From Oscillochloris sp. ZM17-4 (GTDB lineage Bacteria > Chloroflexota > Chloroflexia > Chloroflexales > Chloroflexaceae), in assembly GCF_019599295.1 (NCBI RefSeq), contig NZ_JAIEWN010000012.1:4422-43983 (forward strand): a stretch of DNA of 39,562 nucleotides, written 5' to 3'. Below are positions 1 through 31,516 of the stretch, in pieces. The notes beneath the pieces are model-generated. The model had not been told where the DNA came from and searched no databases. It saw only the letters and a list, made by a program, of their open reading frames with translations. The translations under genes were made by a program, and so were the position numbers. Within the stretch, counting starts at the first letter, position 1. Each line of letters starts with the position of its first letter.

Positions 1-2184
1 CACCCCGGCGTCGAGCGGATCGTGCGCCAGGCCCGGGGCGTCGGCCGCGGCCCCGCCGTGGACCGGGCGATCAACGCGGTGCGCCTCGGCATCGAGCGCG
101 GCTTCGACGAGGGGCTGGCCCACGAGGCCCGGCTCTTCGCCGAGGCGGTGGTGGACCCTGAGGGCGGCAAGGCCGGCATCAGCGCCTTTATGGAGAAGCG
201 CAGCGCGCCCCTGCCCACCCGCCGCCCGCCGGTGGGCGTCGAGCAGGAGCAGATCCTGATCGCCCAGGGCGACCTGCTGCCCGTCGGCGCGGCATTCTTC
301 CCCGGTGCCACGCCCATCCCCGGCTGGCAGTACGCCCAGGCCGTCGTGCGCGACCCGGCGAGCGGCGCGGGCTCCCACGGCGACCCGGCCGTCGCCGAGC
401 ACCAGATCATCATCCCCGTCGAGCGGCCCGGCCCGAGCCAGGCCCTGCTCTACGTGCTGGCCAGCGAGGTCAACTTCAACGATATCTGGGCGATCACCGG
501 CATCCCGGTGAGCCTGTTCGACGAGCACGACCGCGACTGGCACGTGACCGGGTCGGGCGGGGTGGCTCTGGTGGCCGCCCTGGGCGAGGAGGCCCGCCGC
601 GAGGGTCGGCTGAAGGTGGGCGACCTGGTGGCGATCTACGCCGGCCAGAGCGACCTGCTCTCGCCGCTGGCCGGGCTCGACCCGATGGCCGCCGACTTCG
701 CGATCCAGGGCTACAACACGCCCGACGGCTCGCACCAGCAGTTTATGCTGGCCCAGGCCCCGCAGTGCCTGGCGCTGCCGCCCGACATGAGCCTGGAGGC
801 GGCCGGCAGCTTCATGCTCAACCTGGGCACCATCTACCGCGCCCTCTTCACCACGCTGGGCGTGCGGGCCGGGCGCAGCATCTTCATCGAGGGGGCGGCC
901 ACCGGCACCGGCCTCGACGCGGCCCGCACCGCCGCGCGCAACGGCCTGGGCGTGGTCGGCCTGGTCAGCTCGGAGGGGCGCGCGGCCACCCTGCGCGCGG
1001 CCGGGGCGCGCGGGGCGATCAACCGCAAGAGCCCGGCGCTGGCCGAGTGCTTCACCCGCGTGCCGTCTGACCCGGAGCTGTGGGGCACCTGGGAGCAGGC
1101 CGGCGATGCGCTGCTGGAGCGCTTCAGGGGGCAGAACGACGGCCGCCTGGCCGACTACGCCATCTCCCACGCCGGCGAGACGGCCTTCCCGCGCAGCTTC
1201 CAGCTCCTCGGCGCGCCGCGCGGCGGCCACACTCCCACCCTCGCCTTCTACGGGGCGAGCAGCGGGTACCACTTCACCTTCCTCGGCAAGCCGGGCGCCG
1301 CCAGCCCCGCCGAGATGCTGCGCCGCGCCGGGCTCCACGCCGGCCAGGCGGTGGTGATCTACTACGGAATTGCAGATTGCAGATTGCAGATTGCAGATCC
1401 CGGCAATCTGCAATCTGCAATCTACAATCTGCAATCGGCCCTGATCGACCCCCCCGGCCTGGAGGCGGTCGAGGCGGCCAGGGCGATCGGGGCGCGGGTG
1501 GTGGTGGTGGCCGCCAGCGAGGCCCAGCGCGAGTTCGTGCAGAGCCTGGGCTTCGGCGCCGCGCTGCGCGGCGTGGTCAGCCTGGAGGAGATCAGGCGGC
1601 GGATGGGCGACGCCTTCGACTGGCCGGAGACCATGCCCGACCTGCCGGACTCGCGGGCCGACCCGGCGGGGCTGAAGGAGGCGGTGCGCCGATTCAACGA
1701 GCTGACCTTCAAGCCGCTGGGGGCGGCGGTGGGACAGCACCTGCGCAGCGCCGACAACCCGCGCGGCTACCCCGACATCGTCGTCGAGCGGGCCGGCCAC
1801 GACGCGCTGGCGGTCAGCGCGATGCTGGTGAAGCCCTTCACCGGGCGGGTCGTCTACTTCGAGGAGCTGGCCGGGCGGCGCTTCTCCTTCTTCGCCCCGC
1901 AGATCTGGATGCGCCAGCGCCGCATCCTGATGCCCACGGCGAACATCTTCGGGACGCACCTCTCCAACGCCTACGAGATCGTGCGCCTGACCGACGAGAT
2001 CAGCGCGGGGATGCTGGGCATCACCGAGCCGACCATGGTGCCCTGGGGCGAGCTGCGCGACGCCCACCAGGCCATGTGGGAGAACCGCCACGCCGCCGCC
2101 ACCTATGTGGTCAACCACGCCCTGCCCGCCCCCGGCATCAGGGGCAGAGATGAGCTCTACGAGGCGTGGGCGAGCCTCGGCTGA
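1..2184 (+). CDS. pcs: Propionyl-CoA synthase, C-terminal part (hydratase end plus acrylyl-CoA reductase domain); 5' end outside window
   Basis: The frame is open from base 1 (HPGVERIV...) to a TGA at 2182-2184, about 727 codons, so the N-terminus lies outside the window. The first ~75 residues look like the end of an enoyl-CoA hydratase domain (GISAFMEKR). The rest is a medium-chain reductase of the crotonyl-CoA carboxylase/reductase type: SEVNFNDIWAITG, LEAAGSF and the nucleotide-binding GAATGTG near residue 300, and a C-terminal zinc-free MDR fold. Hydratase followed by CCR-like reductase is the order of the last two domains of propionyl-CoA synthase, which turns 3-hydroxypropionate into propionyl-CoA in the 3-hydroxypropionate bicycle. 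The ligase domain, which would prove the call, is not visible. Residues ~457-479 are a low-complexity insert made by an in-frame heptamer repeat (see that feature). Alternative: a two-domain acrylyl-CoA reductase/dehydratase without a ligase. Confidence 0.75.
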   Translation, partial: HPGVERIVRQARGVGRGPAVDRAINAVRLGIERGFDEGLAHEARLFAEAVVDPEGGKAGISAFMEKRSAPLPTRRPPVGVEQEQILIAQGDLLPVGAAFFPGATPIPGWQYAQAVVRDPASGAGSHGDPAVAEHQIIIPVERPGPSQALLYVLASEVNFNDIWAITGIPVSLFDEHDRDWHVTGSGGVALVAALGEEARREGRLKVGDLVAIYAGQSDLLSPLAGLDPMAADFAIQGYNTPDGSHQQFMLAQAPQCLALPPDMSLEAAGSFMLNLGTIYRALFTTLGVRAGRSIFIEGAATGTGLDAARTAARNGLGVVGLVSSEGRAATLRAAGARGAINRKSPALAECFTRVPSDPELWGTWEQAGDALLERFRGQNDGRLADYAISHAGETAFPRSFQLLGAPRGGHTPTLAFYGASSGYHFTFLGKPGAASPAEMLRRAGLHAGQAVVIYYGIADCRLQIADPGNLQSAIYNLQSALIDPPGLEAVEAARAIGARVVVVAASEAQREFVQSLGFGAALRGVVSLEEIRRRMGDAFDWPETMPDLPDSRADPAGLKEAVRRFNELTFKPLGAAVGQHLRSADNPRGYPDIVVERAGHDALAVSAMLVKPFTGRVVYFEELAGRRFSFFAPQIWMRQRRILMPTANIFGTHLSNAYEIVRLTDEISAGMLGITEPTMVPWGELRDAHQAMWENRHAAATYVVNHALPAPGIRGRDELYEAWASLG
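1369..1435. repeat. Inverted heptanucleotide repeat inserted in frame in the pcs gene
   Basis: Four copies of ATTGCAG (1369-1398) face an inverted set (1406-1435). The two 30-base arms pair with a single mismatch around a 7-base loop. The insert is translated without a stop as IADCRLQIAD...NLQSAIYNLQSA, unlike the GC-rich codons on both sides. It is AT-richer than the gene and sits between the nucleotide-binding part and the C-terminal part of the reductase domain. Confidence 0.9.
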
Positions 2185-2321: not shown

Positions 2322-4547
2322 GTGCGTATGCGCAGCGTATTTCGCGCCGAGCGATCAGCGCTCGGCGCGCTTGTGATCGTCATCGCCGCCGTGGCCCTGC
2401 GGGCGTGGCTGTGGTGGTGGGGCGCGCGCAGCGGGGCCGTGCCGCCGGGCGACCCGGAGGAGTACTACCGGGCGGCGCTGCATATCCTCCAGGGCGGCTA
2501 CGACGACGCAGGCAAGTGGCTGCGGCCGCCGGGATACCCGGCGCTGCTGGCGCTGATCCTGCCCCTCGCGGGGATGGAGCTGGCGCGGGCCACGCTGATC
2601 CAGGCGGCCCTGATGGGGCTGGGGGCGCTCGCCTTCTACGCCTTCGGGCGGCAGATCTTCGGGCGGCACGACGTGGGCGTGATCGCCGGGCTGATCGCCG
2701 CGCTGTTCATCCCCCTGGCCGCCTTCGGCAGCGCGATCTACGGCGAGGCGCTCTTCGTCACGCTGATGGTGCTCGCGCTCACCGCGCTCGACCGGGCCGC
2801 CCAGCGCGGCGGCTGGCCTATGGCCCTCGCCGCCGGGGCGCTCCTCGCCGCCGCCACGCTGACCCGCGCGGTCGGCCTATTTTTCATCCCGCTGGCCGCC
2901 CTGCTGCTGCTGCTCCGCCCGGCCCACACGCAACCCCCAGCCCCCAGCCCCCGCATCCCGCTCGCCATGGGCCGCTGGCCGCTGGCCCTGGCGCTCCTCC
3001 TCGGCGCCGCGATCCTGATCGCGCCGTGGGCCGCCCGCAACTACGCCGTCCACCAGCGGCTCATCCTGGTGGACACCAACGGCGGGATCAGCGTCTGGTG
3101 GGGGCAGGTGCGCAGCCCCGAGGAGAAGGCCGCCCGCGACGCAGAGCTGTTCGCCGTGCCGAACCTGGCCGACCGCCAGGCGCTCGCCTCCCGCTGGACG
3201 ATCGAGCGCGTCCGCGAGGACCCGCTGGAGTTCATCGGGCGCATGCGCTTCAAGGTGGCATCTCTGCTGATGCTCCAGACCCGCAACTACGCTGCGGGCG
3301 ACGTGATCTCGATCGGGTCGGACGGGAGCCCGGTGGTGCAGAACGCCGGCGAGCTGTCGCTGGGGCTGTCGCTGCTGGCGGACGCCCAGTACATCCTGAT
3401 CATGCTGCTGGGGATCGCGGGGCTCTGCTTCGCGCCGAGCTACCGCCGGGCGCTCCCGGCGCTGCTGTGGGCCGGGCTGACGGTGGCGCTGGTGGCGATC
3501 AGCATCGGCCACCCGCGCCTGCGGCTGCCGCTGGTGTCCGCGCTCATCCCCTTCGCCGCCTACGCCCTGGCCCGCGCCCCCGAGGCGCTGCGTGCCAGCG
3601 CCCGGCTCCTGCGCGACCGGCGGGCCATCGCGGCACTTGTCGGCGCCGCCCTCTTCCTGGCCCTGATCGTCAGCACGCGCTATGTCACCTGGCTGCGGGG
3701 CGAGCGCTACGCCCTGGCGGCGCAGTGGCAGATCGCGCAGGGGGATATGTCCGGCGCGCAGCGGCTGCTCGGACAGGCGCGGGACGTGGATCCGACGAAC
3801 GCGCTGCGGGCGATCGCCCTGGCCGACCTGGAGCTGCGCGAGGGGCGCTACGCCGAGGCCGACGGGCGCTACGCACAGGCGCTGGAGATCGAGGGGCGCA
3901 GCCAGTACGCCCGGGCGAGGCGGATCGGGATCGCCGCGCTGCTCGACCGGCCGGAGGTAGCGCAGGATGAGCTCGCGGCGATCAACGCCTACTGGCGCGC
4001 GGGGGATGATCTGTACCGCTGGGCATGGGGTCGGCTGGGGACGCCGCCGCCCGCCCGCGTCGTCCCAGGCGACCCCATGAGCCTCGGGCACTACGCCGGG
4101 TTTGCGCCGGCCACGCCTGATCTGCCGCAGGGGCTGTGGACGCTGGGCGCGGGCGAGCTGCGGCTGCGCGGCGGCTGCGGCGACCTGGCGCTCCACCTGC
4201 GCGGCACAGCCGGGCAGACCGCCACGGTCTCGGCGGAGGGCTGGCTGACGCCGCAGGCCGTGGCGCTCACCGGCGAGGATCAGGAGATCCGCTGGCCGAT
4301 GTCGGGCGTCCCCGGCTGCGCCGCTGGGGGGGCGATCATCGTACGGGTGCGGAGCCCGACGCGGCTCCTGGAGACAGGAAGCCGCGCCGGGGCGCCGTCG
4401 CCGGGTCCAGCGCGAAGGACCGCGGCGGGGGCAGCGGGTCGAGCGCACGCAGCGCCGTCGCCGTGGCCCGCAGATCCTCAAGCTCGGCCCGCAGGCGCGG
4501 CTCGGCGTCGAGGCGGCGCTCAAGGTCGGCCCGCTCGGCCGCGGTGA
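2322..4547 (+). CDS. PMT/ArnT-like membrane glycosyltransferase with TPR-like tail; C-terminus probably broken
   Basis: The start is GTG 2322, six bases after an AGAGGG ribosome site; ATG 2328 is possible. The protein is an integral membrane protein with about ten hydrophobic segments over residues 10-460. The first outer loop has PGDPEEYY and LRPPGYP, the pattern of dolichyl-phosphate-mannose/ArnT-type (GT39/GT83) glycosyltransferases that use lipid-linked sugars. Residues ~470-560 look like TPR helices (two repeats with A-x-G-D/R-Y/M-x-x-A). A beta-rich stretch follows to about 4350 (GGAIIVRVRSP). The last ~65 residues are Arg/Ala/Pro-rich and are read from the strand opposite the anti-sigma gene, so they are probably not native. 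The true C-terminus seems to be lost at a junction near 4350-4385. The acceptor and sugar are unknown. Confidence 0.7.
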   Translation: MRMRSVFRAERSALGALVIVIAAVALRAWLWWWGARSGAVPPGDPEEYYRAALHILQGGYDDAGKWLRPPGYPALLALILPLAGMELARATLIQAALMGLGALAFYAFGRQIFGRHDVGVIAGLIAALFIPLAAFGSAIYGEALFVTLMVLALTALDRAAQRGGWPMALAAGALLAAATLTRAVGLFFIPLAALLLLLRPAHTQPPAPSPRIPLAMGRWPLALALLLGAAILIAPWAARNYAVHQRLILVDTNGGISVWWGQVRSPEEKAARDAELFAVPNLADRQALASRWTIERVREDPLEFIGRMRFKVASLLMLQTRNYAAGDVISIGSDGSPVVQNAGELSLGLSLLADAQYILIMLLGIAGLCFAPSYRRALPALLWAGLTVALVAISIGHPRLRLPLVSALIPFAAYALARAPEALRASARLLRDRRAIAALVGAALFLALIVSTRYVTWLRGERYALAAQWQIAQGDMSGAQRLLGQARDVDPTNALRAIALADLELREGRYAEADGRYAQALEIEGRSQYARARRIGIAALLDRPEVAQDELAAINAYWRAGDDLYRWAWGRLGTPPPARVVPGDPMSLGHYAGFAPATPDLPQGLWTLGAGELRLRGGCGDLALHLRGTAGQTATVSAEGWLTPQAVALTGEDQEIRWPMSGVPGCAAGGAIIVRVRSPTRLLETGSRAGAPSPGPARRTAAGAAGRAHAAPSPWPADPQARPAGAARRRGGAQGRPARPR

Positions 4548-5590: not shown

Positions 5591-5637
5591 TTTTTGTTGG
5601 GATGTTGGCGGCGAAGCCGCCAACATCCCAACAAAAA
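5591..5637. terminator. 22-bp perfect hairpin, GAA loop, at the end of the Kelch gene
   Basis: Arms 5591-5612 and 5616-5637 pair perfectly. The element sits 3 bases after the Kelch gene stop. On both strands the T-run precedes the stem and an A-run follows it, so it is not a classical U-tract terminator, although its place suggests transcript 3'-end formation or protection. Confidence 0.6.
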
Positions 5638-15461: not shown

Positions 15462-15516
15462 TGATTGACTGGATGGTGTTTGCGAGCTGCGCTCGCAAAC
15501 ACCATCCAGTCAATCA
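15462..15516. terminator. 26-bp perfect hairpin overlapping the U32 gene stop codon
   Basis: Arms 15462-15487 and 15491-15516 pair perfectly around TGC. The U32 stop codon (15514-15516) is the outer end of one arm. It separates the U32 gene from the RND promoter. No T-run follows. Confidence 0.6.
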
Positions 15517-18045
15517 CATAAGGGGTATCAGCTCGTAGCCCTCGGGCACGAAGAGGCTGCCCTCGGTGGTGCCCTGCGGCGAGACCTGGGCGAGCTGGCG
15601 GGATAGCTCGGCGGCTGAGGTCGTGCCGGCCAGGTACTCGGCGAAAGCGCGGCCCACCTGCGCCACCTGCGCGCCCGTCTCGTGGACAAACTCCAGGCGG
15701 TAGTGGGCCACCCCGGCCTCGCGCCAGAGGTCCATATGCCGGCTGGCCTCCTGGGCCTCGGCCCCGAAGACCGTGTTGCGGCAGCCGACATCGGCCATCA
15801 CCGGGTGCGCCCGGCCGCGCTCGTCGCGCAGCTCCACCCGCTGCGTCTCGCAGGGGTGCCCGCAGTCCTTGTAGCTGGTGCCGCTTGAGAGGAAGCGGCA
15901 GAAGACACAGTGCTCGGTGTGGAAGACCGGCAGGTGCTGGTAGGCCACCGCCTCAATCGCGGCGGGGCCGACCTCGCGGGCCAGGTCGGCCACCTGGGCC
16001 GCGTTCAGGTCGTAGGTCGGCGTGAGCCGCTCCAGGCCGAGGCCCATGAAGATCTCGGCGGTGAGCTGGTTGGCCGTGTTCAGGCTGAAGTCGCCGATCA
16101 GGGCCGGGCGATCCTCGACCTGGAGGGCCTGGAGCAGCCCGCCGGAGCGCACCAGGATCGGGCAGCCCAGCTTCAGCAGGAAGTACACCACACGCTGCTC
16201 GCTCGGCTTGAGCACCCGCGGGCTGGCCACGCGGGCCTCGATGCCCGCCGCTTGCACGCGCTCCACGGCGGGCCGCAGCCCGTAGAGCTCCAGGTAGTCC
16301 AGCGTGATGCTGGCCGGCCGCAGCTCCAGCGCGGCGTCGAGTTGCTCGGGGGTGCGAACGAGCAAGTGCAGGAGGCAGGAGGCAGGCCGCTCGCTACGCT
16401 CGCTGCCTCCTGCCTCCTGCCTCCTGCCTCCTGCCTCCTGCCTCCTGCCTCCTGCCTCCTGCCTCCTGCCTCCTGCCTCCTGCCTCCGCCCTAGCGCCTC
16501 CGCCGCCTCCCGCCGCAGGCTGTTCAGCAGCGAGCTGGGCGCGAAGGGCTCGCCTTGTATGTCCAGCTCAAGCCCGGCCAGCTCATAGGGCGTGCCGCCC
16601 AGGCGGCCGAGCTGCTCGCGCAGGTAGGCCTCGTCCACGGCGCGGCGCTGGGCGTGGCCGAGGGGCTCCGCAGACCGCACGCTGGCGCTCAGCTCGGGGC
16701 GAGATACCAGGGCGAAGGTAAGCTCCAGCGGCGCGCCCTCGTGGGCCACGACGCGGGCCGTCAGCGGCTGGCGGCGCAGGGGCGCGGCCGGGGCGATGTA
16801 GGGCCGCGCCGCCCTGTCGAGATCAGGGTCGTGGGTGCGCCAGAGCAGGTCGCCCGGCCGGATGCGGCTGAAGTCCAGCGCGCCATAGGCGAACTCCAGC
16901 TCCAGCAGGCCGTCGCGGGTCGGGGTGGCGATGTAGAGCCGCCCGCCCTCCTCGCGCTCCTGGGGGCTGCGCCAGTCGGCCGCGTCGAAGACCACGCCGT
17001 CGCCGGCCTTCAGCGGGGCCGCAGCGATCTCGGGGTTCGGCTCGACCAGCACATAGTCGGCGAAGACCCGGTCCACCCTGCCGGCCAGCACGCCGCGGTG
17101 GCGCGGCGAGCGCCCGCGCACCACCTTCTGGTGGTCCGTCCCAGAGATAAAGTAGTCGCCCAGGCCGCGCGAGTAGACCTGCTCCAGGTGGATCTCATCG
17201 GCGCGGGTGATGCTCAGCGGCAGGCCGGCCCAGGCCTCATCGATCGCCCGGCGGTAGGCGCTCGTCGTCAGGGCCACATACTCCTCGCCCTTGTAGCGGC
17301 CCTCGATTTTGATCGCCGAGACGCCGATCTGCACAATCTCGGGGATATGCTGGAGCGCGTAGAGGTCGCCCGGCGAGAGCAGGTAGCGCGCGTCGCCGAG
17401 GGGCACGTGGCGGCCATCGACGATCAGCTCGTAGGGCAGGCGGCATGCCTGGGCGCACTGGCCGCGGTTGGCGCTGCGGCCGCCCCAGGCCTCCGACGAG
17501 AAGCACTGGCCGGAGTAGGAGACGCAGAGCGCGCCGTGGCCGAACATCTCCAGCTCCAGGTCGGTGGCGGCGCGGATGGCCCGCACGTCGGCCAGGCTGA
17601 GCTCGCGGGCCAGCACCACCCGGCTAACGCCGAACTGCCTCGCCAGCTCCACGCCCTCGGCGCTGGTGATGCTCATCTGGGTGCTGCCGTGGATGGCCAG
17701 GCCGGGGGCGATCTGGTGGGCCATGCGGGCCACGCCGACATCCTGGACAATGATCGAGTCGGCCCCGGCGGCGGCGATCTGCTCCAGGGCGCGGGCCGCC
17801 TCGCGCAGCTCGTGGTCGAACACCAGCGTGTTGAAGGTCACATAGCCTTTCACGCCGCGCCGGTGGAGCGTGCGCAGAGCATCGGGCAGCTCCTCCAGGG
17901 TGAAGCCAACCTTAGCGCGGGCCGAGAAATGGTTCAGCCCGAAGTAGACGGCGTCGGCCCCGGCCTCAATCGCGGCCTGGAGCTGCGGCCAGTGGCCGGC
18001 CGGGCTCATCACCTCGGGCTTTATTGGTTTGTGCGTGTCGCTCAT
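15514..18045 (-). CDS. Peptidase U32 family protein, RlhA/YhbU-like with C-terminal extension
   Basis: The start at ATG 18045 is chosen because the U32 motif PEVMSPAGHWPQLQAAIEAG begins 10 codons later and a TACAAT box lies just upstream; the longer frame reads through hairpin DNA. The protein has 843 residues. The N-terminal U32 domain (~10-300) contains ADAVYFGLNHFSARA, GSTQMSITS, and the Cys-rich CVSYSGQCFSSEAWGGRSANRGQCAQACRxPY core in pieces near 185-220. The C-terminal part (~580-840) has a second set, HTEHCVFCRFLSSG and DCGHPCETQ, as in the collagenase-like subgroup. Family members such as RlhA hydroxylate an rRNA base with prephenate; others are called proteases without proof. Residues ~519-560 are a low-complexity insert from an in-frame heptamer repeat. 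Confidence 0.82.
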   Translation of the reverse strand: MSDTHKPIKPEVMSPAGHWPQLQAAIEAGADAVYFGLNHFSARAKVGFTLEELPDALRTLHRRGVKGYVTFNTLVFDHELREAARALEQIAAAGADSIIVQDVGVARMAHQIAPGLAIHGSTQMSITSAEGVELARQFGVSRVVLARELSLADVRAIRAATDLELEMFGHGALCVSYSGQCFSSEAWGGRSANRGQCAQACRLPYELIVDGRHVPLGDARYLLSPGDLYALQHIPEIVQIGVSAIKIEGRYKGEEYVALTTSAYRRAIDEAWAGLPLSITRADEIHLEQVYSRGLGDYFISGTDHQKVVRGRSPRHRGVLAGRVDRVFADYVLVEPNPEIAAAPLKAGDGVVFDAADWRSPQEREEGGRLYIATPTRDGLLELEFAYGALDFSRIRPGDLLWRTHDPDLDRAARPYIAPAAPLRRQPLTARVVAHEGAPLELTFALVSRPELSASVRSAEPLGHAQRRAVDEAYLREQLGRLGGTPYELAGLELDIQGEPFAPSSLLNSLRREAAEALGRRQEAGGRRQEAGGRRQEAGGRRQEAGGSERSERPASCLLHLLVRTPEQLDAALELRPASITLDYLELYGLRPAVERVQAAGIEARVASPRVLKPSEQRVVYFLLKLGCPILVRSGGLLQALQVEDRPALIGDFSLNTANQLTAEIFMGLGLERLTPTYDLNAAQVADLAREVGPAAIEAVAYQHLPVFHTEHCVFCRFLSSGTSYKDCGHPCETQRVELRDERGRAHPVMADVGCRNTVFGAEAQEASRHMDLWREAGVAHYRLEFVHETGAQVAQVGRAFAEYLAGTTSAAELSRQLAQVSPQGTTEGSLFVPEGYELIPLM
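16368..16487. repeat. Heptanucleotide tandem and inverted repeat inside the U32 gene
   Basis: Twelve head-to-tail copies of TGCCTCC (16404-16487) follow an inverted short set GCAGGAGGCAGGAGGCAGG (16368-16386). Seven is not a multiple of three, but twelve copies give 84 bases, so the frame is kept and the protein gains four RRQEAGG units. The spacer between the sets is itself an inverted repeat (CGCTCGCTACGCTCGC-like). Confidence 0.92.
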
Positions 18046-18053
18046 GCTCCCAT

Positions 18054-18059
18054 TGTACA
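18054..18059 (-). promoter_or_regulatory. Probable -10 box (TACAAT) for the U32 gene
   Basis: TTGTACAAT lies 8 bases before the U32 ATG on the minus strand, so transcription would begin near the start codon. Upstream (18060-18200) no gene is seen, only small hairpins (GGCGGC-TCT-GCCGCC, AGCCCGC-CTTC-GCGGGCT, and a 13-bp stem around 18107-18140). Confidence 0.35.
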
Positions 18060-18204
18060 AGAAATAGCGCCATGCTGCGCTCGCGGCGGCTCTGCCGCCA
18101 GGGCTTTGGATTTGGGCGACGAATCCGCCCAAATCCAATACAAATGCGAAGCCCGCCTTCGCGGGCTGGCCGAGGCTGCGCAGGCGGCCTTTGTAGAACC
18201 TAGC

Positions 18205-21654: not shown

Positions 21655-24429
21655 TCACACGTCTTGCTCAGATAGCTTCCGCCGCCTGACATCGTGCAGC
21701 GTGTCGAGCAGGCTGGTATCGTGTTTGAGCAGGTCGCGGCTATCGTTTCGCCAGAAGTCGATGAGGTACGTGCAAAGCATATCGATGAACTCGGGCTGGA
21801 TACGCTGGAGCCGGTCGCGGAGAACATATCTGGCAGCCTCGAAGTTGCTGCGATTGAACAAGAGGGCTTGCGCGCAGGCCTCGCCATAGTGGGCAATTGC
21901 CCGGCGATAGTGCTGCTGCGAGGGTGTGGACGTAGCCAACTCAAAGGCGATATTACCGAGTATCAGCTCCATACGGCTCAGGAGCTCGGCGTAGCGCTGC
22001 CCTTGGGGCAGTGCGCAGTGCTCGACCTCCTCTGAGAGCGGGACTACGGCATCGGTGGTGTTTTTCAAATAGTGTGTCAGGATGAGCGACACTAGGCCAT
22101 CGACAACCAGCGGCTCGGCACCGACTACAGCGGCGAGCCTACGGCTTTCCTCGAATGAGTCCTCCGCCTTCCACCACTCCGATCGGTGAAGCCAGAGCCG
22201 CCCCTTATAGTTCAGCGTCCTGGCCAGATCCGCCTTGCGGTTACGACGGCGCAGTATGCGCTCACTATGCTCAAGGTAGGCGGCGCTCTGCTCGGCGCGT
22301 TTTTTTAAGTCGCTGTTACCCATGCGGAACTTCAGGAAGAAGCTCGGCCACTCCTGGCGCAGGTAGTGCTCTAGCTCCAGGTGGATGGGGCCGGCTGTGG
22401 GGATGCGATCATTTGCCACAGAGTTGGGGTCGAAGATCTGAGCTGCCTTAACGGTGAGGCTCACCTCGCGCCAGTGATAGATAGTGGCCAGGTTTGCCAG
22501 GGCCTTGGCGTTCTCGACCTCATCCTTGAAATGCTCGAACACCTGTGATGCCAGGTAAAAATAGTGCACAGCAAGGTCATAATTGCCGGCATCACGCTCG
22601 ATCATGCCGATCGTACTCCAGCTAAAGCCAACCTGTTGCTGCTGCTCCTCTTTCAGGTTCTGGCGAAGCTTCAGCGCCTGAAGGGCCTCTTCGCGCGCGC
22701 GCCCGTACTCACCACGCTGGCGGTCGAGGTTGGCGATATTATTCATGCAGGCTGCGACCCCCGCATCGTTCATCATCGCCTTTTCGATGCCCAGGCTGCG
22801 CGTATTCCAGCTGCGGGCCTGATCATACTCGCCGAGGGTTGTGCTGAGTGTCGCGATCTTGCGGTAGATCTGGGCCAGGTCGCTCTGCCGGCTTGCCCAC
22901 GCTGGGCTTGTCGGGTCGATCTGGCCTAGGAGCTGTTCGAGCACGCTGCGGCTCTTGTGCTGGTACTCCAGGGCGCGTTTCAGGTCGCTACGTTCCTCAA
23001 TACTGCCTATAAGGTTATAGATCTCGTAGCGCACCTCGCTGCTGACCTGCTCCTGGCGGTTCAGTATATCGAGGATGTGTCGGGCCTGGGCGTCATCGTG
23101 GCGGTAAAAGGCCAGGCGGGCCCGGCTGATTTCAAGCTGGTCGAACTGTTCGGCTGTCAGCTTCGCCACATTGGCCTCGATTACCTCCAGCATGAGCCGA
23201 CAGAAGTCGACGGCCTTCTTGCGTCCATAGTCGTTAAAGAGCGTGATCGCTTTAAAGAGGACTTGCCCAATATCGAGATCAGAGTTCAGCTCGTAGTAGA
23301 GTTCTTCGATCTCTAGGGTGCGGCGCTCAAGGGTGTCCGTGACTCGAGCGAGCTTCTCCTGATATGCCTCGACCGCTTTCCGCGCAATCACCCGCCGCGT
23401 CGCTGGCGGATAGGCCGCATACTTGCCGATCAAATAGCGCATCTCATCGTGCAGCGTATACTCGTGCAGGTCTGCGCGATATTTGATGAAAGCCAGGTTC
23501 TGGAGTTGGGCCAGCACATGCTCAGCCTCGGCGGGCGTTAGTCCCATCAGGTGGGCGAGCATGGGCGCGTCGCAGCGCTTATAGACGACGGCCATATGCA
23601 GGATTGCCGCGTTGACCTGGCTAGGAAGTTCGCGTACCCACGAGACCATTTCACGCTCGAAATCCTCTTTGGGGACCGCAATCAGCTCATCGACATCGGC
23701 GTTCAAGAGAATCCACCCAAGGGCCAGGGCGAGCAGAATAGGCCTGCCCTCCGCCAGGTCATAGATCTTGTCGAGGCTCGCCTGATCGATAAGCTCGGGG
23801 AGATGTTCGCTGGCGAACCGCTGTTGCATATAGGTGCGGGCATCCTCCCGGGTGATCCCCGTTAGCCAGCGCTGATCAATATGCCCCCCAAGATATGCGG
23901 GCGGGATAGGCTCGCGGCCGGCAGTGAGGACAATCGTCTGCCCGTGCAGGCTGGGGAGAAACCTTTCGAGTAGCCAGGTGGCGAAGCTCTGGTGGGGAAT
24001 ATTTTCGAGGGTGTCGAATCGCAGCACTATTTTCGTAACGGTTCTGGCAAGCGCATTGTAGTCGGCCACAAATGCAGCAATAAGCTCCTGCTCATTCTCG
24101 TACGCCTCCTCTGATGTAGCAGGCTCCTGGTCCTGTCGCGCTAAGAAGGTTGTGAAGTGCTCAGAGCCAAGCTGGCGGGTCAAGCTATTGATCAACCCAT
24201 CCTGCGTCTGATTCGCAAAGTCGTAGATATCGATGAGTGCCGGGACTACGCAGCCAAGCTGTTCAAACTCCGGGCCGAGCACCTCAAGCAGCTTAGTCTT
24301 GCCGATCCCGCCATCGCCGACGAAATGGAACATCCAGACCGGCTGCGCCGGATCGAGCAGCTTGAGGGCGCGCTGAATCTCTTCTGTGCGCCCGACAAAG
24401 CCTGTCCCAGTGGCATCAAAGAATGTCAC
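21655..24429 (-). CDS. STAND-type NTPase with C-terminal TPR repeats
   Basis: The start is GTG 24429, which overlaps the upstream stop as GTGA. The protein has 924 residues. FVGRTEEI and Walker A GDGGIGKT (38-45) open the NTPase, and Walker B is IVLRFDT (134-140); sensor and winged-helix-like parts follow (LTGITREDARTYM, LAEGRPILLALA). From ~390 to the end it is helical, with TPR-like units (EYDQARSWNTRSLGIEKAMM, GEYGRAREEALQALKL, GNYDLAVHYFYLASQVFE). STAND NTPases are switches that assemble on sensing a signal through their repeats. It has no visible effector domain and may act as sensor for the others. It resembles the TPR-NTPases that accompany radical SAM genes in the FxsA/FxsB systems of actinobacteria, though I cannot confirm orthology. 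Confidence 0.8.
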   Translation of the reverse strand: MTFFDATGTGFVGRTEEIQRALKLLDPAQPVWMFHFVGDGGIGKTKLLEVLGPEFEQLGCVVPALIDIYDFANQTQDGLINSLTRQLGSEHFTTFLARQDQEPATSEEAYENEQELIAAFVADYNALARTVTKIVLRFDTLENIPHQSFATWLLERFLPSLHGQTIVLTAGREPIPPAYLGGHIDQRWLTGITREDARTYMQQRFASEHLPELIDQASLDKIYDLAEGRPILLALALGWILLNADVDELIAVPKEDFEREMVSWVRELPSQVNAAILHMAVVYKRCDAPMLAHLMGLTPAEAEHVLAQLQNLAFIKYRADLHEYTLHDEMRYLIGKYAAYPPATRRVIARKAVEAYQEKLARVTDTLERRTLEIEELYYELNSDLDIGQVLFKAITLFNDYGRKKAVDFCRLMLEVIEANVAKLTAEQFDQLEISRARLAFYRHDDAQARHILDILNRQEQVSSEVRYEIYNLIGSIEERSDLKRALEYQHKSRSVLEQLLGQIDPTSPAWASRQSDLAQIYRKIATLSTTLGEYDQARSWNTRSLGIEKAMMNDAGVAACMNNIANLDRQRGEYGRAREEALQALKLRQNLKEEQQQQVGFSWSTIGMIERDAGNYDLAVHYFYLASQVFEHFKDEVENAKALANLATIYHWREVSLTVKAAQIFDPNSVANDRIPTAGPIHLELEHYLRQEWPSFFLKFRMGNSDLKKRAEQSAAYLEHSERILRRRNRKADLARTLNYKGRLWLHRSEWWKAEDSFEESRRLAAVVGAEPLVVDGLVSLILTHYLKNTTDAVVPLSEEVEHCALPQGQRYAELLSRMELILGNIAFELATSTPSQQHYRRAIAHYGEACAQALLFNRSNFEAARYVLRDRLQRIQPEFIDMLCTYLIDFWRNDSRDLLKHDTSLLDTLHDVRRRKLSEQDV

Positions 24430-27098
24430 AGTCTACCCTCATCATCGCGCGGCGGTCGCATCGTTTGCATTGGGTCGCCATAGAGTACATAGGCGGCCCA
24501 GGCCGCATCCGGCGCTGCTCGGAGCTGGAGATCGTGGCGCGCTAGCCGGACAGACTCGCCGATCATCTGGCCGGTCATCAGGTGGGTGAAGAATTTTACG
24601 GCGAACTCGGTTGCACTCTCTGGAGTGGTGTTCCACTGATTTACGAGGCAATGATTCGCTCCACTCCTGAGCACTTCCGCCCCCACATCCACGCCGGAGA
24701 GCGGAGACGACGTGTGCGCCCTGAGCTGGTCGCGTAGCTTGCCCACGGGCGCGTGCATATCTTCCCGCATCTTCTCTAGCGCATCCAGCAGGTCGGCGAG
24801 CGCGCGGCGCCGCTCCAGGTGGTCGATCAGCACCTGCATCTTCGCAAGCTTTCCATCACCGCTCAGGTTTTCATAGTCTACACCCAAAAGGTAAAACCCA
24901 CAGAGCGTCTTGAGCTCATTATCATTCAGGCTCTCATCCATCAGGCCCAGCAGCAGTAGCTTAAACGGCTGGAGCTCTTTTCCATCGAGGAGTTGCATCT
25001 TGCCGGTCGTCGAAGGTTGCGTGTCCAGGCTGCCGCCGGGTCGGGGCTGGTGGACGCCATTGATGAAGACCAGCGGCCGCTGTTTAGTCAGGTACGAGCC
25101 CACGTCATGCAGCCGGGCCGCCCTGCCGTCCGCACACATAAGGCTGGCGACCACCCTATGCTCATCAGCGGAATACTCGGCCGTAACAGGTCCGGCCAGG
25201 TAGATCAGGCGATATTTCTGGCGGCTAAACAGCTCAAGCAGGCGTGGCCGGCTGGGAAATTGCTCCGTATCGCAGATGACGCGCCGGGCGCTTAGAACAG
25301 GCGCGATCTGCGCGATCTCCGTTTCCAGCGACGAGGCCATAGGGTCATCACGGGCACCCAGCGTAACCAGGAGCGCTTTTAGGGGCGTTGGGGGCGCACT
25401 ATGATAGCCTGGGAGGTGCTCATCGCTCGCCCACTGCGACTGCGGCAGCGCCCGCCCGATGCTGTGGGTCAGGCAGAGGAAGCTCTCGCCAGAGCGCATA
25501 AGCTCATAGGGCACAGACGCGCCGGTCACACTGATCTCCAGGGCGTTGCCGGCCTCCTGGATGATCTGCGCCGTCGCATCAGGGATGAGGTCGGTGCGAA
25601 TGAGCGTACCTACTTGATCGATGCGGTCGCCCATATCGCCAGCGGCGACACCGGCATCAAAGAGCTCGATCACCTTCACGACATCATCTGCGCGGATAGG
25701 CTTCTCGTAGCTGCGCTCCGCCTCCCGCGCGGCCTTCCACGTTGCCAGAACGCGCTGGGACTCTTCGATCACGATATCGAGCCGCACCTTCGTGCGCTGC
25801 TCGATAAACCGCTCAATGTTGCTGGCCAGTTCATCCCGGAAGCAAAAGAGCTCCTCTTCGTTCTTGATCTGATCGGCCAGGAGCCGGGCTGTACCCAGGC
25901 TCTCCGGCCCCGTGTAGATGGCGCGGAGCCGCTGCGTGCAGCGTTCGCGCAAGACGAAGTTAATCTTCTCGTCGGGGCTATCGTAGCAGCGGTAGATGCG
26001 GGCCAGCAGCAGGAGCTCGCCGCGTAGCCGTGCAGCGATGGCCTCTTTCCCAATCTGGCTATCCTGGAGGTCCTCGTTGAGCCGCCACTCATAGATCTGG
26101 AGCGCGAGCTCGCAGTGGTTAAAAAAGCCCTCGCGGTCGGTAATACTCCAATGGCGGACGAGCAGCCGGCGGAGCGGCGCGACAACCTCGTTGCTGTTGA
26201 TCTTCTTCTCATAGCGTACGATGCCAGTTGCCCGCATCATTGAGATCAGATCGCCGAAGCCGTGGCTATAGCTCTCATCCATCGCCGAAAGGGTGTCCTC
26301 GTCGAAATAACGGTACACGGCCATCTCGCGAATGCGCTGATAGATGGCCTCGTTGAACTCCACCTTTTGCTCAAGCTTTGCCCGCATCTCCTGGACCAGG
26401 TGCTCGACCAGGGCTAGTTCTCTTTTGCGCCACTCGTGCGCCGAGTCTTGCGTCGACTCCTGGGTGAAGAAGGTTGCGATACACTCATTGCCGAACGGCA
26501 GCCCAAAGGTAAGGTAATGGATATGGGTGTGGAGCGACCGTATCGACGCGCGCACTTTGTTCTTGGCGATCAAGTAGCGCAGCTGATTCTCGGTTCCTTC
26601 AGGGTCGCAGAGTGGGATCTGGATGGATTTGATCTGCGTGCGCAACTCGGGGGTCGCCCGCGAGAGGAGATCGACGCGGAAGGGCCAGATGCTGCTGAGG
26701 AAGGCGATGACCTGGCCCTTGTAGGGCGGGCGGGTCAGCGGCACAAGCAGATCGAACACCTCCCGGCTGATCGCCTTCTGCCCGTCGCTGCCTGGCGCAT
26801 CATCAATAATCAGCACCTTTCTCTGGCCCCGGAAGGCCGGCCCATCGATCATGCGCTCTAGGGCGCGCCGAAGCTGCTCCTGGCCGGCTGCGTAGTCGTC
26901 AGGGTGCGATGGAGCTGCGGGAAGGTCAATCCAGACCGTCTGGAGGTTCTTATCCAGCGCATGGAACTCCACCTCGCGCAGCCAGTGAGTTTTTCCAACC
27001 CCCTGGCTGCCCCAGAGCCAGATGATCGGCTCCTCCTGATCGTCGCCGGCGGCGAGTTGCTCGATACGTCGGGCGATAAGATCTGCTAGTCCAGCCAT
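24426..27098 (-). CDS. STAND NTPase fused to a catalytically dead CHAT domain with an inserted EAD
   Basis: The start at ATG 27098 (890 residues) is chosen because the NTPase begins ~30 residues later. A 36-codon in-frame extension to 27206 exists but looks non-coding. Walker A is GSQGVGKT (30-37) and Walker B VLIIDDAP (95-102); a helical middle follows to ~500. Residues ~505-885 form a CHAT domain (caspase-like protease fold): VPYELMRSGESFLCL, GANHCLVNQWNTTPESATEFAVKFF and AAYVLYGDP are typical. The catalytic His motif (AGHG in the family) is here YLAGPV (633-638), and the catalytic Cys motif (LNACxS) is FINGVHQ (678-684), so both catalytic residues are absent. Between the Cys position and the C-terminal half an EAD is inserted (~710-781, DESLNDNELKTLCG, LLGVDYENLSGDGKLAKM). 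It probably acts as a scaffold rather than a protease. Confidence 0.8.
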   Translation of the reverse strand: MAGLADLIARRIEQLAAGDDQEEPIIWLWGSQGVGKTHWLREVEFHALDKNLQTVWIDLPAAPSHPDDYAAGQEQLRRALERMIDGPAFRGQRKVLIIDDAPGSDGQKAISREVFDLLVPLTRPPYKGQVIAFLSSIWPFRVDLLSRATPELRTQIKSIQIPLCDPEGTENQLRYLIAKNKVRASIRSLHTHIHYLTFGLPFGNECIATFFTQESTQDSAHEWRKRELALVEHLVQEMRAKLEQKVEFNEAIYQRIREMAVYRYFDEDTLSAMDESYSHGFGDLISMMRATGIVRYEKKINSNEVVAPLRRLLVRHWSITDREGFFNHCELALQIYEWRLNEDLQDSQIGKEAIAARLRGELLLLARIYRCYDSPDEKINFVLRERCTQRLRAIYTGPESLGTARLLADQIKNEEELFCFRDELASNIERFIEQRTKVRLDIVIEESQRVLATWKAAREAERSYEKPIRADDVVKVIELFDAGVAAGDMGDRIDQVGTLIRTDLIPDATAQIIQEAGNALEISVTGASVPYELMRSGESFLCLTHSIGRALPQSQWASDEHLPGYHSAPPTPLKALLVTLGARDDPMASSLETEIAQIAPVLSARRVICDTEQFPSRPRLLELFSRQKYRLIYLAGPVTAEYSADEHRVVASLMCADGRAARLHDVGSYLTKQRPLVFINGVHQPRPGGSLDTQPSTTGKMQLLDGKELQPFKLLLLGLMDESLNDNELKTLCGFYLLGVDYENLSGDGKLAKMQVLIDHLERRRALADLLDALEKMREDMHAPVGKLRDQLRAHTSSPLSGVDVGAEVLRSGANHCLVNQWNTTPESATEFAVKFFTHLMTGQMIGESVRLARHDLQLRAAPDAAWAAYVLYGDPMQTMRPPRDDEGRL

Positions 27099-27220
27099 AG
27101 ATATCAGCCCTGCTGATTGTTGACAGAGATAGAAGCTGAGATCGCAATCAGGTATGCGGTGGGAAGGGCAATGGCGGCTCCTTCCAGAGGTAGCGCCCGA
27201 CCGCATTGGGCGGCTAGAGC

Positions 27221-28540
27221 TTAGAGGAAGAGCGCGTGATAGGGCGTATAGATAGGATCGCTCCGCTCAAGAACCGTGCGCAGCTCCTTTTTGTCGGCGT
27301 CCCAAAGCACCAGTGGGACAAGGTCGACGCCCTGAGCAGCAAATTTAGCCCGGCCCACATCGTCACGTTCGATGATCGCGATGAGGAAGGCGACATCGCC
27401 GCCGATCTCGCGAATTTTAGCGATGATGCTCAGGAGCAGGTCGACGTGGATGGAGAGCACAAAGACCCCGATGGCGCGCAGCCCTTGAAATGCCTGTTCG
27501 TTCAGCTGGATCACTCCTGGTTCGGGCTCCCAGTAGCGCTCGAAAGACAACCGCGCATCGCCAAGCTCGGCAAAGACGCGATGCACCACATCAGCGGTGG
27601 CAAACTCATCTTCTGAAAACGAGCCAAGCTCAGAGCAGAACAGGACGTATGGATCGGACGGGGACTCCAGATAGCGCGTGAGGACGTGGCGCAGCATAGG
27701 TGCTACGAGATCGCGCACCTCTTTGCGGTTGAATCGGGCTATATAGAGCCAGGAGTCGCTAAACTTATTGACCGAGAGCAGGAACTCGCCGGGGAACGTG
27801 ATTCGTCTGACCCAATCCTTCAGGTCAAGCAGTTGCTGGGATACGTCGCTCTGGAAGGGGGCCACGGGGGGGGCTACTGCGAGCGGAAGCAGGGGGTGTG
27901 ACGAAGGAGCGGAGCTGACTCCATCGACGGGGGCCTTTCGGACACCCGGGATCATAATCTTGCGCTCGTCGGGCCCAATCTGGGCAAGGGTATCGCGTGA
28001 GGCCAGGGCCATATATTTTGCCGCTGGCAACCGCAGATCTTCGGCGATATGCTTACGGGTTGTGCCGAACAGCGTCACGACGCTGCCGATCCTCTGCTCG
28101 TGCTGGCGCCAGAAGTCGACCATCGCCTGAGAATGGCTACCAGCCAGCAGGATCAAGTTCTCGCACCCTGCCACCTGATCCGCGGGGACAAGCTCATAGT
28201 TCAGACGGCTCATGATTCTGTGCAATGTGCCGAGCGTGTAGCGCTTGGCCTGAAATGCCTCCGGCGCGACGAGCTTTCGCCAGGGGTCGGGCTGCACTAT
28301 ATTGCGGGCAATATAGTCAGCGATCTGATCGAGAAGATCGCCGTATTGGTTTGCCAGGATTTCGAATTGCAGGTCGAGGTTAGTTGAATACGGCTGGGTT
28401 GGCAGTGCGCTGCTCTCGTTGTCGAGGGTGTGGATGGCCCACTTATATCCCAGCCGCTCGCGCGTTGACCAGATGCCGGCCTCGATAAGCTTCAGCAGGA
28501 TCTCATTAAGCCCCAGCGGATGTGTAGCCTGGCTATCCAT
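27221..28540 (-). CDS. Protein with divergent, probably inactive orotate-phosphoribosyltransferase-like domain(s), first gene of the cluster
   Basis: The 439-residue protein has a C-terminal part (~240-415) that follows the OPRTase plan: GEFLLSVNKFSDSWLYI resembles the family's GxFxLxSGxxSxxYI, and GVFVLSIHVDLLLSI...REIGGDVAFLIAIIERDDVG lies where VVxVDDVxTTGxS...GAxVxxxxVxVDR is expected. The acidic pair and Thr-Thr-Gly of the PRPP loop are missing. The N-terminal part (~50-190) shows a weaker similar plan (YSTNLDLQFEILANQY, then ENLILLAGSHSQAMVDFW and GSVVTLFGTTR), so it may be a tandem. A Pro/Ser linker (205-230) joins the halves. I infer a ligand-sensing or scaffold role rather than nucleotide synthesis. 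It leads the operon behind a strong promoter, 122 bases before the STAND-CHAT start. The PRTase reading is by pattern only. Confidence 0.5.
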   Translation of the reverse strand: MDSQATHPLGLNEILLKLIEAGIWSTRERLGYKWAIHTLDNESSALPTQPYSTNLDLQFEILANQYGDLLDQIADYIARNIVQPDPWRKLVAPEAFQAKRYTLGTLHRIMSRLNYELVPADQVAGCENLILLAGSHSQAMVDFWRQHEQRIGSVVTLFGTTRKHIAEDLRLPAAKYMALASRDTLAQIGPDERKIMIPGVRKAPVDGVSSAPSSHPLLPLAVAPPVAPFQSDVSQQLLDLKDWVRRITFPGEFLLSVNKFSDSWLYIARFNRKEVRDLVAPMLRHVLTRYLESPSDPYVLFCSELGSFSEDEFATADVVHRVFAELGDARLSFERYWEPEPGVIQLNEQAFQGLRAIGVFVLSIHVDLLLSIIAKIREIGGDVAFLIAIIERDDVGRAKFAAQGVDLVPLVLWDADKKELRTVLERSDPIYTPYHALFL

Positions 28541-28994: not shown

Positions 28995-29056
28995 ATGGCT
29001 TTTGTGGTACCGTTGGGTCGATCAAAACCCGACAACGGAAAGCGCACAAAAGCCAT
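28995..29056. other. Foldback hairpin over the transposase start
   Basis: ATGGCTTTTGTG (28995-29006) pairs with 29045-29056, with an inner CCGTTG.../...CAACGG stem. The transposase ATG (29055) is in the right arm. Such structures near IS ends limit translation from outside transcripts, as known for IS10. Confidence 0.5.
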
Positions 29057-30077
29057 GGATTCTATTCTACCATTGCTCCTCTGCCTGGTCGCTGAAGTCA
29101 GGATGACGACACTGCGCCAGCTTGGCCGGATTGTGCTGGCCATGCTCGCGATGACGGGACGGGTCACGATGCTGGGACTCTCGCGCTGGACCGGAACCGG
29201 TGGCAGCTATCGCACCATCCAGCGCTTCTTTCATACGACCCTGCCCTGGGCCGCGATGCTCTGGATCTTCGTGCGGACGCATCTGCTCACCCCCGGCGAT
29301 GACATGCTGCTGGTCGGCGATGAATGTGTGGTGACGAAAGCCGGGACGGAGACCTACGGCGTGGATCGCTTCTTTTCCAGTATCTTTGGCAAACCGGTGC
29401 CGGGGGTCGCGCTCTTCGCGCTGGCCCTGGTCAGTCGTACGGAACGGCAGGCCTTTCCCGTGCAGATCGCGCAGGTGCTGCGTGAACCTGCGGGAACGCC
29501 GCCCCCAGCCGCGCCGGTCGCCAAACGGAAACCGGGCCGCCCGAAGGGCAGCAGCACCCAGGCCAAGGCCGATGCACCCCTGAATGCGGAACATACCCGT
29601 ATCAGTGCCATGATCCAAGGTCTCCTGACCCGCATCGGGGCATCCCTCACGCTGCGCTATCTGGTGCTGGATGGGCATTTTGGCAACCACAACGCCGTGC
29701 TGATGGCCCGTCGCCTCGGCTTGCACCTTATCTCAAAGCTGCGCAGCGACTCGGCGCTCTATTATCCGTATGACGGCCCCTACGCCGGACATGGCCCACA
29801 CCGAATCTATGGCGAGCGGATCGACCCAACGGCCATCCCGGAACGCTTTCTGAAGCAGACTACCGTGGAACACGAGATTGAGACGCGCATCTATCAGGTT
29901 GAGGCGCGGCACGAGACCTTTGACCAACCGCTGAATGTGGTCATGATCGTCAAGACCCATCAGACCACCGGCAAACAGGCGCACGTCTACCTCTTCAGTA
30001 GTGACGGCACTCTGGCCTGGGATGTCCTGCGTGACGACTACCAGCTGCGGTTCCAAATCGAGTTTGTCTTTCGGTAG
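29055..30077 (+). pseudogene. IS4-type DDE transposase, 3' end cut off
   Basis: The start at ATG 29055 gives 340 residues. The DDE core shows GDECVVTKAGTETYGVDRFF (first Asp near 81), LRYLVLDGHFGNHNAVL (second Asp near 208) and YQLRFQIEFVFR at the end. The last is the start of the IS4 YREK motif (Y-x2-R-x3-E-x6-K), and the K is missing because the frame meets a TAG supplied by foreign DNA from 30073 on. A Pro/Lys-rich KRKPGRPKG patch precedes the second Asp. The 3' part and right end are not found on the far side of the IS pile. It should be inactive. Confidence 0.8.
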
Positions 30078-30211
30078 TGGCTATATCTCGAATGGTGACG
30101 CGTCTCTTCCCCGAGGGAACGCCGTACGAAATGATTGACACCTCGCGTGTTTTGCTTACACGCGGAGTGAGCGATTGTAGCGAAAGAGAAACAGCCGGAG
30201 GCACACTTCAT
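30073..30211 (-). pseudogene. IS1-type element remnant, right piece (insB C-terminus)
   Basis: The minus strand encodes ...HEVCLRLFLFRYNRSLRV and a stop, the end of an IS1 InsB-type transposase. The rest of the gene lies at 31525-31676. Removing the intervening element and one copy of CACTTCAT restores a seamless frame, ...[15 protein letters not shown]. The element end is probably GGTAGTGG at 30073, which truncates the IS4-type gene. Confidence 0.8.
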
Positions 30212-31516
30212 GGTGGTGTCCCTCATATTCCGTGATGAGGTAGGCTGACGAGATAAACATAATGTATCCTCGCGTGGGAGTAGTAGCCTTCTGCACGACG
30301 AGGATTGCATGGACTGGGCAACCTTGTACTGTCCGAACCGTGACTGTCGCTGTTACGGTCTGCCCTTTGCGCAGGGAATGTTGGTAAAAAATGGCTCTAG
30401 CCGTGGGGCAAAACAAGGGTTGTGTCGGGCGTGTGGATGGAGCGTATCATTGACCGAAGGTACCGCCTACTTCAATTTGGAAACCCCACGGTCGGTCTTC
30501 GAACTGGCCGTGCGTGCGCTGGCGGAAGGGATGAGCATCCGGAGCACCGCGCGGGTGGTACAGGTGGATAAAGACACCGTGTGTGCCTGGTTGCAGCGTG
30601 CAGGTGGCCATAGTCGGCTGCTGATGCTGTATTTGTGGCGGCAACTCCACGTCACCGAATGCCAACTCGATGAGCTATGGAGCTTTGTGCATACCAAGGA
30701 GCAGCATCTGCTCCAAGCGACAGAATGGTCGGAGAGCTACGGCGATGCATGGGTGTGGGTGGCATTTGCCCCCTGTTGGCGTTTGGTGTTGGCCTTTGTG
30801 GTCGGTAAGCGCACGCAAGCCGAAGCCAATCTGCTGCTGCAACGGGTCGTTCATGTGACGGATGCGCATATTCCCTTCTTTACCAGCGACCAACTGCCGG
30901 CCTACCAGACGGCACTGCTCGAAGTCTATGGAACCTGGTATCAGCCACCACGGCAAGGCTCACGCGGCCGTCATCCGGCCAAACGCCGCATTCCGCTTCC
31001 AAACTTGCGCTATGCGCAAGTGGTGAAACGACGCGAGCGCGGTCAGGTCGTGGAGGTGAGCAGGAAAGTCGTGTTTGGCAGTGACGACGACCTGGCTGAT
31101 TGCCTGGTTGCCTCGTCCGCGAGCACCACCATCAATACCAGTTTTGTCGAGCGCGACAATCTGCGCTGGCGCACGCTCAATCGTCGCTTGACCCGCAAAA
31201 CGCTCGGCTTTTCCAAGGACATTGGCTGGCTGGAAACCCAGCTCTGGTTGTCGATGGCCTACTATCACCTTTGTTTACCCCATCTCAGCCTGCGTGAAGC
31301 GCTGTCCAACCCACAACCTACCCGCGGTGAGGGTTCGCCGCGCATTTGGCGAGAGGTCACGCCTGCGATGGCAGCCGGTATGACCGATCACGTTTGGACG
31401 ACGGAAGAGTTACTCGGCTTTCGCCTTCCAGTTGCCTTTCTCGATGAGTTGCCAGCAATCGAACACTTGTTCCCTAATCCAGATCTTGCCCATCACGGAA
31501 TATGAGGGACACCACC
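30212..31516 (+). mobile_element. Intact IS1-type insertion sequence (1305 bp, 8-bp target duplication)
   Basis: Perfect 26-bp terminal inverted repeats (30212-30237 and 31491-31516, GGTGGTGTCCCTCATATTCC...) are flanked by the direct repeat CACTTCAT (30204-30211 and 31517-31524). One transposase gene fills the element. It sits inside the insB gene of another IS1-type element. Confidence 0.95.
30309..31505 (+). CDS. IS1-family-like transposase with zinc ribbon
   Basis: The 398-residue protein has an N-terminal zinc ribbon (CPNRDC at ~8-13, CRACG at ~39-43) followed by a helix-turn-helix (~70-95, [19 protein letters not shown]). The catalytic part shows [10 protein letters not shown] (first Asp), [14 protein letters not shown] (second Asp) and [29 protein letters not shown] in two pieces, with the Glu of the DDE triad, as in IS1 InsB. 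At 398 residues it is a single-frame, enlarged version of IS1 InsAB without the usual frameshift. The stop codon lies in the right terminal repeat. It looks intact. Confidence 0.9.

Follow-up and report, generated by a model that had tools for sequence, protein, structure and literature searches.

The propionyl-CoA synthase gene (pcs) that opens the window, by which we mean the whole 39,562-nucleotide stretch analysed here, carries at 1369-1435 an in-frame hairpin with arms of tandem heptamers, and we consider it fairly probable that this insert is one copy of a population of selfish, non-autonomous, heptamer-armed palindromes, similar to the palindromic elements of Rickettsia (RPE) and tolerated in variable protein loops. 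The insert is probably of no use to the enzyme, being tolerated selfish DNA. A heptamer-armed unit with defined ends would be copied into new sites, frame-keeping insertions in loose protein loops would survive and be translated as an extra loop, the arms would afterwards grow, shrink and decay through slippage and point mutation, and a loop that tolerates one element may be reused, such that a different family can replace the first. The first-pass annotation had seen part of this in its mobile or expanding repeat: the repeat is indeed dispersed and changing, however expansion is only one of the changes, alongside unit swaps, decay and loop inversion, and the annotation missed hundreds of elements in many unit families, some in core genes, as well as the different hairpin that a congener carries in the same loop. 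We refer to the window's own genome (6.69 Mb, 182 contigs, 98.6% complete) as G000 and to its nearest congener as G005.

The hairpin in propionyl-CoA synthase

The part of pcs in the window (727 residues) matched the solved enzyme 6eqo_A with an E-value of 7.7e-256 (query 4-725 on chain 1140-1841), so that the whole reductase part is covered, with an intact frame and an open frame of 1,914 aa. The gaps of this alignment fall at the insert, with LLYYG on one side and GLE on the other, and the flanking segments look, in our reading, like a beta-strand and a helix of a Rossmann-like unit. The gene model is interrupted between 4322 and 4442 of its contig (C24 of G000, with 600 N in the contig), and the window, which starts at 4422, probably begins directly after a scaffold gap within pcs.

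Features of the heptamer repeats and their host gene in the window
Feature	Position	Strand	Remark
Propionyl-CoA synthase gene, 3' part (reductase part)	1..2184	+	hairpin in frame between YYG and GLE
Left arm, ATTGCAG x4.3, 100% identity	1369..1398	+	G-richer arm; outer end at the family's usual phase
Spacer (loop) CCCGGCA, 7 nt	1399..1405	+	several other hairpins also have CCGG-containing loops
Right arm, inverse ATTGCAG (CTGCAAT type) repeats, one CTACAAT variant	1406..1435	+	
Short CCCCCAG array (2.7 copies) in the PMT_2-family gene downstream	2934..2952	+	under the element threshold
Second element, GCAGGAG x2.7 facing CTGCCTC x12	16368..16487	-	

The hairpin totals 67 bp, its arms of 30 bp each being paired at 29 of 30 positions (97% complementary), and the pcs frame (1, 4, 7...) stays open across it with the translation IADCRLQIADPGNLQSAIYNLQSA, spelling the peptide IADCRLQ ... 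NLQSAIC; the inverted repeat with its single mismatch and open frame is thus as first annotated. As seven and three have no common factor, a heptamer array gives one seven-residue cycle in every frame, and as the element is palindromic such a cycle is spelled on both strands. The RNA fold of 1330-1475 reached -80.1 kcal/mol (z = -7.35), a value equalled by none of 200 shuffles.

The loop between YYG and GLE comprises 29 residues in G000, 28 in G005, 21 in a further congener (G002), 19 in G018 and 10-12 in 20 relatives, and 31 residues in five genomes of another family which have no heptamers at that place. Loop length therefore varies anyway among relatives, which agrees with the earlier suggestion of a tolerant loop, and by the same lengths the insert adds a net ~18-19 residues rather than the roughly 23 first proposed. 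Among 29 pcs genes (own included), heptamer elements were found in G000 and G005 only and were absent from 27 of the 28 others; each of the two genes has three, at matching places, the two further elements of G000 lying upstream of the window. The first site holds ATTCAAC in G000 and ACTCAAC/ACTCAGC/CCTCAGC in G005, the second has retained an AAGGATG-type family in both, and the third, the hairpin in the window, is ATTGCAG in G000 and a GGGAGTC hairpin in the same loop of G005, with borders a few bases apart. None of the other 28 pcs genes has an ATTGCAG insert, which lends no support to the idea that it might be an old feature shared with distant homologues, whilst an assembly artefact, also raised at the outset, is unlikely given that elements of this kind recur at those sites in a second assembly (G005).

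Two perfect 22-bp inverted repeats with 3-nt gaps, at 2261-2307 and 5591-5637, lie downstream of genes and are probably terminators; neither recurred elsewhere in the sampled sequence. Further along, at 21655-28540 on the minus strand, genes for an AAA_16+TPR protein, an EAD7+CHAT protein and a 439-aa protein without a Pfam match adjoin a radical SAM gene and a methyltransferase, and form a possible conflict-system cluster. Several transposase genes are located at 28995-31505, 31701-33377 and 35316-37778, three of them with DDE_5, IS1-like and IS66/ISL3-like Pfam assignments; the one at 31701-33377 is a further, putative transposase gene.

Abundance, polarity and phase of the heptamer elements

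A search of G000 for three ATTGCAG copies (<=2 mismatches, overlapping matches each counted) returned 647 + 659 = 1,306 matches, against 0 for the reversed-pattern control; the genome thus does hold other such arrays. Across 61 genomes (own included) any match was present in 23, with a range of 0 to 1,306; the five congeners had 145, 2, 49, 447 and 571 matches, and G016, of another genus, had 1,066 whilst its genus-mate G027 had 0. Families may also be near-private to a genome, as with GGGAGTC, which has 805 matches in G005 vs. 4 in G000. Tandem period 7 accounted for 81 arrays in 400 kb, against 0-7 arrays for any other single period between 4 and 19, multiples of 7 aside, and third-order Markov simulations of three contigs produced 0-1 elements vs. 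71, 16 and 44 in the real sequences. In total 149 heptamer elements were detected in 1.0 Mb of G000 and 79 in 554 kb of G005, ca. 150 per Mb or, by extrapolation, roughly a thousand per genome; G002 has one in 120 kb. Classed by their commonest unit, 293 arrays fell into 49 unit families, the largest being ATTGCAG (91 arrays), AGGGGAC (30), AATGTTG (29), GGGGGTT (19) and GGGAGTC (15, G005 only). Period 7 likewise predominates in G016, with different units. The window's second element is in frame in a U32-peptidase-family gene (15514-18138, minus strand), where it spells GGRRQEA repeats, and the short CCCCCAG array is possibly a minor member of the heptamer population. As a separate observation, ATTGCAG hairpins occur in two contigs (L117, L122) of a groundwater metagenome-assembled genome labelled Planctomycetota, indicating either a wider range or mis-binned contigs.

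With a loop of up to 60 allowed, 89 of 228 elements formed a hairpin and 139 formed none at threshold. The polarity of the 89 was uniform: G outnumbers C in the 5' arm of 88, equals it in one and falls below it in none. Outer ends were also non-random, with 73 of 91 ATTGCAG-family arrays starting at one or other of two neighbouring phases (expected 2/7) and single phases preferred by AATGTTG (22/28), AGGGGAC (20/31) and AGGGTAC (8/11; 1/7 expected in each case); p-values for phase assume independent copies, which array copies are not, and serve as a guide only. A preferred outer phase per family suggests that units with defined ends were copied. Complete hairpins were commoner among coding copies (29 of 54 elements interior to genes vs. 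35 of 126 intergenic elements). Two further ideas were dropped. A TA insertion target was hinted at by the T which precedes AATGTTG in 19 of 28 cases and also precedes the (A)GGGGTTG start, and the ATTGCAG family has no such pattern; selection of families for stop-free units was examined because a period-7 array has stops either in every frame or in no frame, and no enrichment was found, 7 of 16 families with at least three arrays being stop-free on both strands vs. 54% expected from shuffled units.

These features bear on whether each array could have been born on site, growing there by slippage with fold-back copying making the palindromes and no movement at all. Heptameric simple repeats are reported to be over-represented in many bacteria, with a polymerase-footprint slippage idea proposed for them (PMC4692102), copy number does differ at shared sites, and some arrays show gradients of unit variants. 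On the other hand, the recurrence of a single unit at hundreds of sites, the private families and the preferred outer phase are not what local birth leads one to expect; the phase result already disfavours it, and we regard it as unlikely. One polarity together with a fixed start phase points to discrete copied units rather than local slippage, and when the spread of units over hundreds of sites and the private families are added, the pattern argues that discrete palindromic units are copied.

Copying by a Y1 (RAYT-like) transposase acting on a REP-type element, or by a host reverse transcriptase, would fit the palindromic, dispersed and mostly intergenic character of the elements, which resembles GTAG REPs as reported (PMC3733652); the assembly, moreover, is 98.6% complete, and a past enzyme may have been lost. 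Against this stand the many unrelated arm sequences and the absence of any Y1_Tnp match in that assembly, whilst G012, a genome without ATTGCAG arrays, has 11. RVT_1 was found in repeat-rich and repeat-poor genomes alike, and since neither domain tracks repeat abundance across 12 genomes both were rejected as the mobilising enzyme. We give such mobilisation hardly any credence.

Copies inside genes and change at shared sites

Gene calls came from a simple codon-usage script, such that interior counts are estimates; by these, elements interior to genes are under-represented (31 of 149 in G000, with 109 under random placement, and 23 of 79 in G005, with 56), and intergenic elements are far above random (85 of 149, with ~17 expected, and 41 of 79). 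Those in frame spell family peptides, among them IADCRLQ...NLQSAI for ATTGCAG, SRESGVG...PTPDSRL for GGGAGTC, RRMKDEG...SSFILHPS for AAGGATG and GGRRQEA for GAGGCAG. Their host enzymes include isocitrate/isopropylmalate dehydrogenase (IDH), 2-isopropylmalate synthase (LeuA) and a BchH/CobN-type chelatase. A Pfam scan of ten host proteins, with insert placement judged by coordinates, put inserts within the matched domain in Iso_dh, HMGL-like (LeuA), CobN/magnesium chelatase (two inserts), the HATPase of an ammonium transporter-histidine kinase, a glycosyltransferase 2 (GT2) and, in G005, PEP carboxylase, and between domains in glutamate synthase (GltB) and a B12-binding radical SAM protein (G005). 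A FAD-oxidase protein has two inserts outside its matched domains, and the tenth protein had a sub-threshold PMT_2 match and no other. Between G000 and G005, Ka/Ks was 0.26 for pcs and 0.22 for GltB (inserts masked), and 0.29 for IDH, 0.13 for LeuA and 0.27 for BchH (unmasked), which at the level of sequence comparison shows these conserved, heptamer-bearing genes to be under purifying selection. From the open frames and Ka/Ks, the pcs insert and the other in-frame heptamer hairpins in metabolic genes are probably translated.

The occupants of individual sites differ between species. The first BchH site holds ATTGCAG in G000 and in G007 (another genus), a long GGGAGTC array in G005 and nothing in G002; at the second, as read from the protein alignment, G005 retains a relic. 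In GltB, G000 and G005 carry crisp ATTGCAG repeats, those of G001 and G004 have decayed, and G003 has a decayed GGGAG-type stretch; the Iso_dh site has ATTGCAG or shortened forms in G000, G005, G001 and G004 and a CATTCAACATTC-type stretch in G003, both G003 arrays being decayed and their unit our own reading. The GltB tree groups G003 and (G001,G004) with full support, next to G000+G005 (90/97), and from this position ATTGCAG was probably present before the stretch that G003 now has. At the LeuA site, ATTGCAG is present in G000, G004 and G007 and absent in G005, G003 and G002; G005 (L173) carries there a perfect 24-nt in-frame palindrome found nowhere else in the sample. Overall, four of eight coding sites in five genes, one in pcs and three others, carry another unit in some of the species.

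Pairing the 149 G000 elements with 78 of the 79 from G005 gave 19 distinct sites (of the 14 paired G000 rows, 120531 shares its region with another and is not a site of its own). Heptamers were present in both genomes at 13; at three, G005 heptamer hairpins adjacent to genes face a GC-rich palindrome of G000 (GTAAGGGCGCAGCAGCG...), whose arm was matched 38 times in 1.0 Mb of G000 and never in 554 kb of G005; and at three there was nothing comparable on the other side. One shared AGGGGAC site has its loop inverted between the two genomes. Since most paired sites are shared, present mobility looks low, and the copy-number change, decay and drift at shared sites imply slow later turnover.

Could the ancestral hairpin persist while its unit is replaced by that of another family, for example after a break at the extruded hairpin that is repaired from a second hairpin? 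Units do differ within one loop at pcs, BchH site 1, GltB and IDH, three G005 hairpins lie opposite the palindrome private to G000, and repeated replacement of heptamer classes is reported for the P6b stem of the Nostoc trnL intron (PMC4476775). Mosaic arrays with an old and a new arm would add support, and one candidate is the hybrid of two families at 94563-94665 of G000 C24 (ATTGCAG on the left, AACATTC-type on the right, grading via ACACTCA). Yet loss followed by new insertion into the same loose loop yields an identical pattern, the units share no homology to guide an exchange, the pcs borders are shifted by a few bases, and the G003 arrays are decayed, with a unit of our own reading. Overwriting of this kind is possible, though we doubt it, and the wider proposition, that Chloroflexales rewrite hairpins in place with whichever family is abundant in the genome, with no homology between old and new, and so repeatedly re-tag core enzymes with a species-specific peptide, is put forward only tentatively.

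The inserts might instead be maintained by selection, serving as a hairpin in the mRNA or as an extra module of the protein. The RNA hairpin of pcs is very stable, and the insert in the GT2-family gene is almost unchanged between G000 and G005; however, sequence, unit and presence vary among congeners whilst the host proteins are conserved, and copies in G001 and G004 decay by point mutation. A function is, in our view, quite improbable, and we retain the reading of the pcs insert as a tolerated selfish palindrome.

Relation to known palindromes and heptamer repeats

The closest parallel is with the palindromic elements of Rickettsia and Wolbachia, which are reported both between genes and in frame in conserved protein genes (PMC2229807, PMC3767692), as are the elements here, whose in-frame copies do not destroy the conserved genes that carry them. 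Different RPE groups reportedly occupy identical or neighbouring insertion sites, and the one host protein reported as tested, gmk, remains active (PMC2229807, PMC3767692). RPE differ in being about 100-150 bp long and in forming non-repetitive sequence families; the Chloroflexales arms consist of tandemly repeated heptamers, with many unrelated units, the pcs hairpin is 67 bp of heptamers, and most listed elements are <100 bp. REP/BIME and MITE-type palindromes are also described as short and dispersed, with inverted arms and some intragenic copies (PMC3733652, PMC2229807). The elements here share the inverted arms and have a preferred outer phase; unlike those palindromes, they come with no Y1 transposase match and no terminal motif common to all families. 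At the few present/absent sites no target-site duplication or clean empty site was recognised.

In period, the STRR of cyanobacteria, the GGGNATC repeats of Xanthomonas and Nostoc and the TAACTGA repeats of Beggiatoaceae are alike, being reported as heptameric, genome-wide and mostly intergenic, and as occupying shared places in related species, where their copy number varies (PMC4692102, PMC4679880). Head-to-tail heptamers are similarly over-represented across the genome here, with a bias to non-coding DNA. However, STRR-type repeats are described as mainly direct arrays, rare in genes, whereas here many core enzymes contain inverted pairs with a single polarity. The Nostoc trnL P6b stem (Class I TDNGATT, Class II NNTGAGT) is likewise reported as a fixed-site heptamer stem whose class was replaced several times (PMC4476775), but in a structural RNA, at one locus and with two classes, where we find protein-coding loops, many loci and many families. 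Coding inverted repeats are reported from nematomorph mitochondria too, with arms that encode conserved native protein (PMC6649704).

Heptamer over-representation, intergenic bias, heptamer-class swapping in Nostoc and in-frame palindromes in Rickettsia are therefore already known, and the Chloroflexales case joins them; in the titles and abstract openings covered by a literature search, we found no description of translated heptamer hairpins in Chloroflexota. In-frame palindromes in core proteins are described from Rickettsia and Wolbachia, which are intracellular and have small genomes. Here a 6.7-Mb genome has such inserts, of many unit families, in genes of central metabolism and of a tetrapyrrole chelatase, and at these same codons insertion, decay, resizing and swapping can be seen among its close relatives, which makes the reason for period seven, and the way in which heptamer repeats spread and replace each other, open to test.
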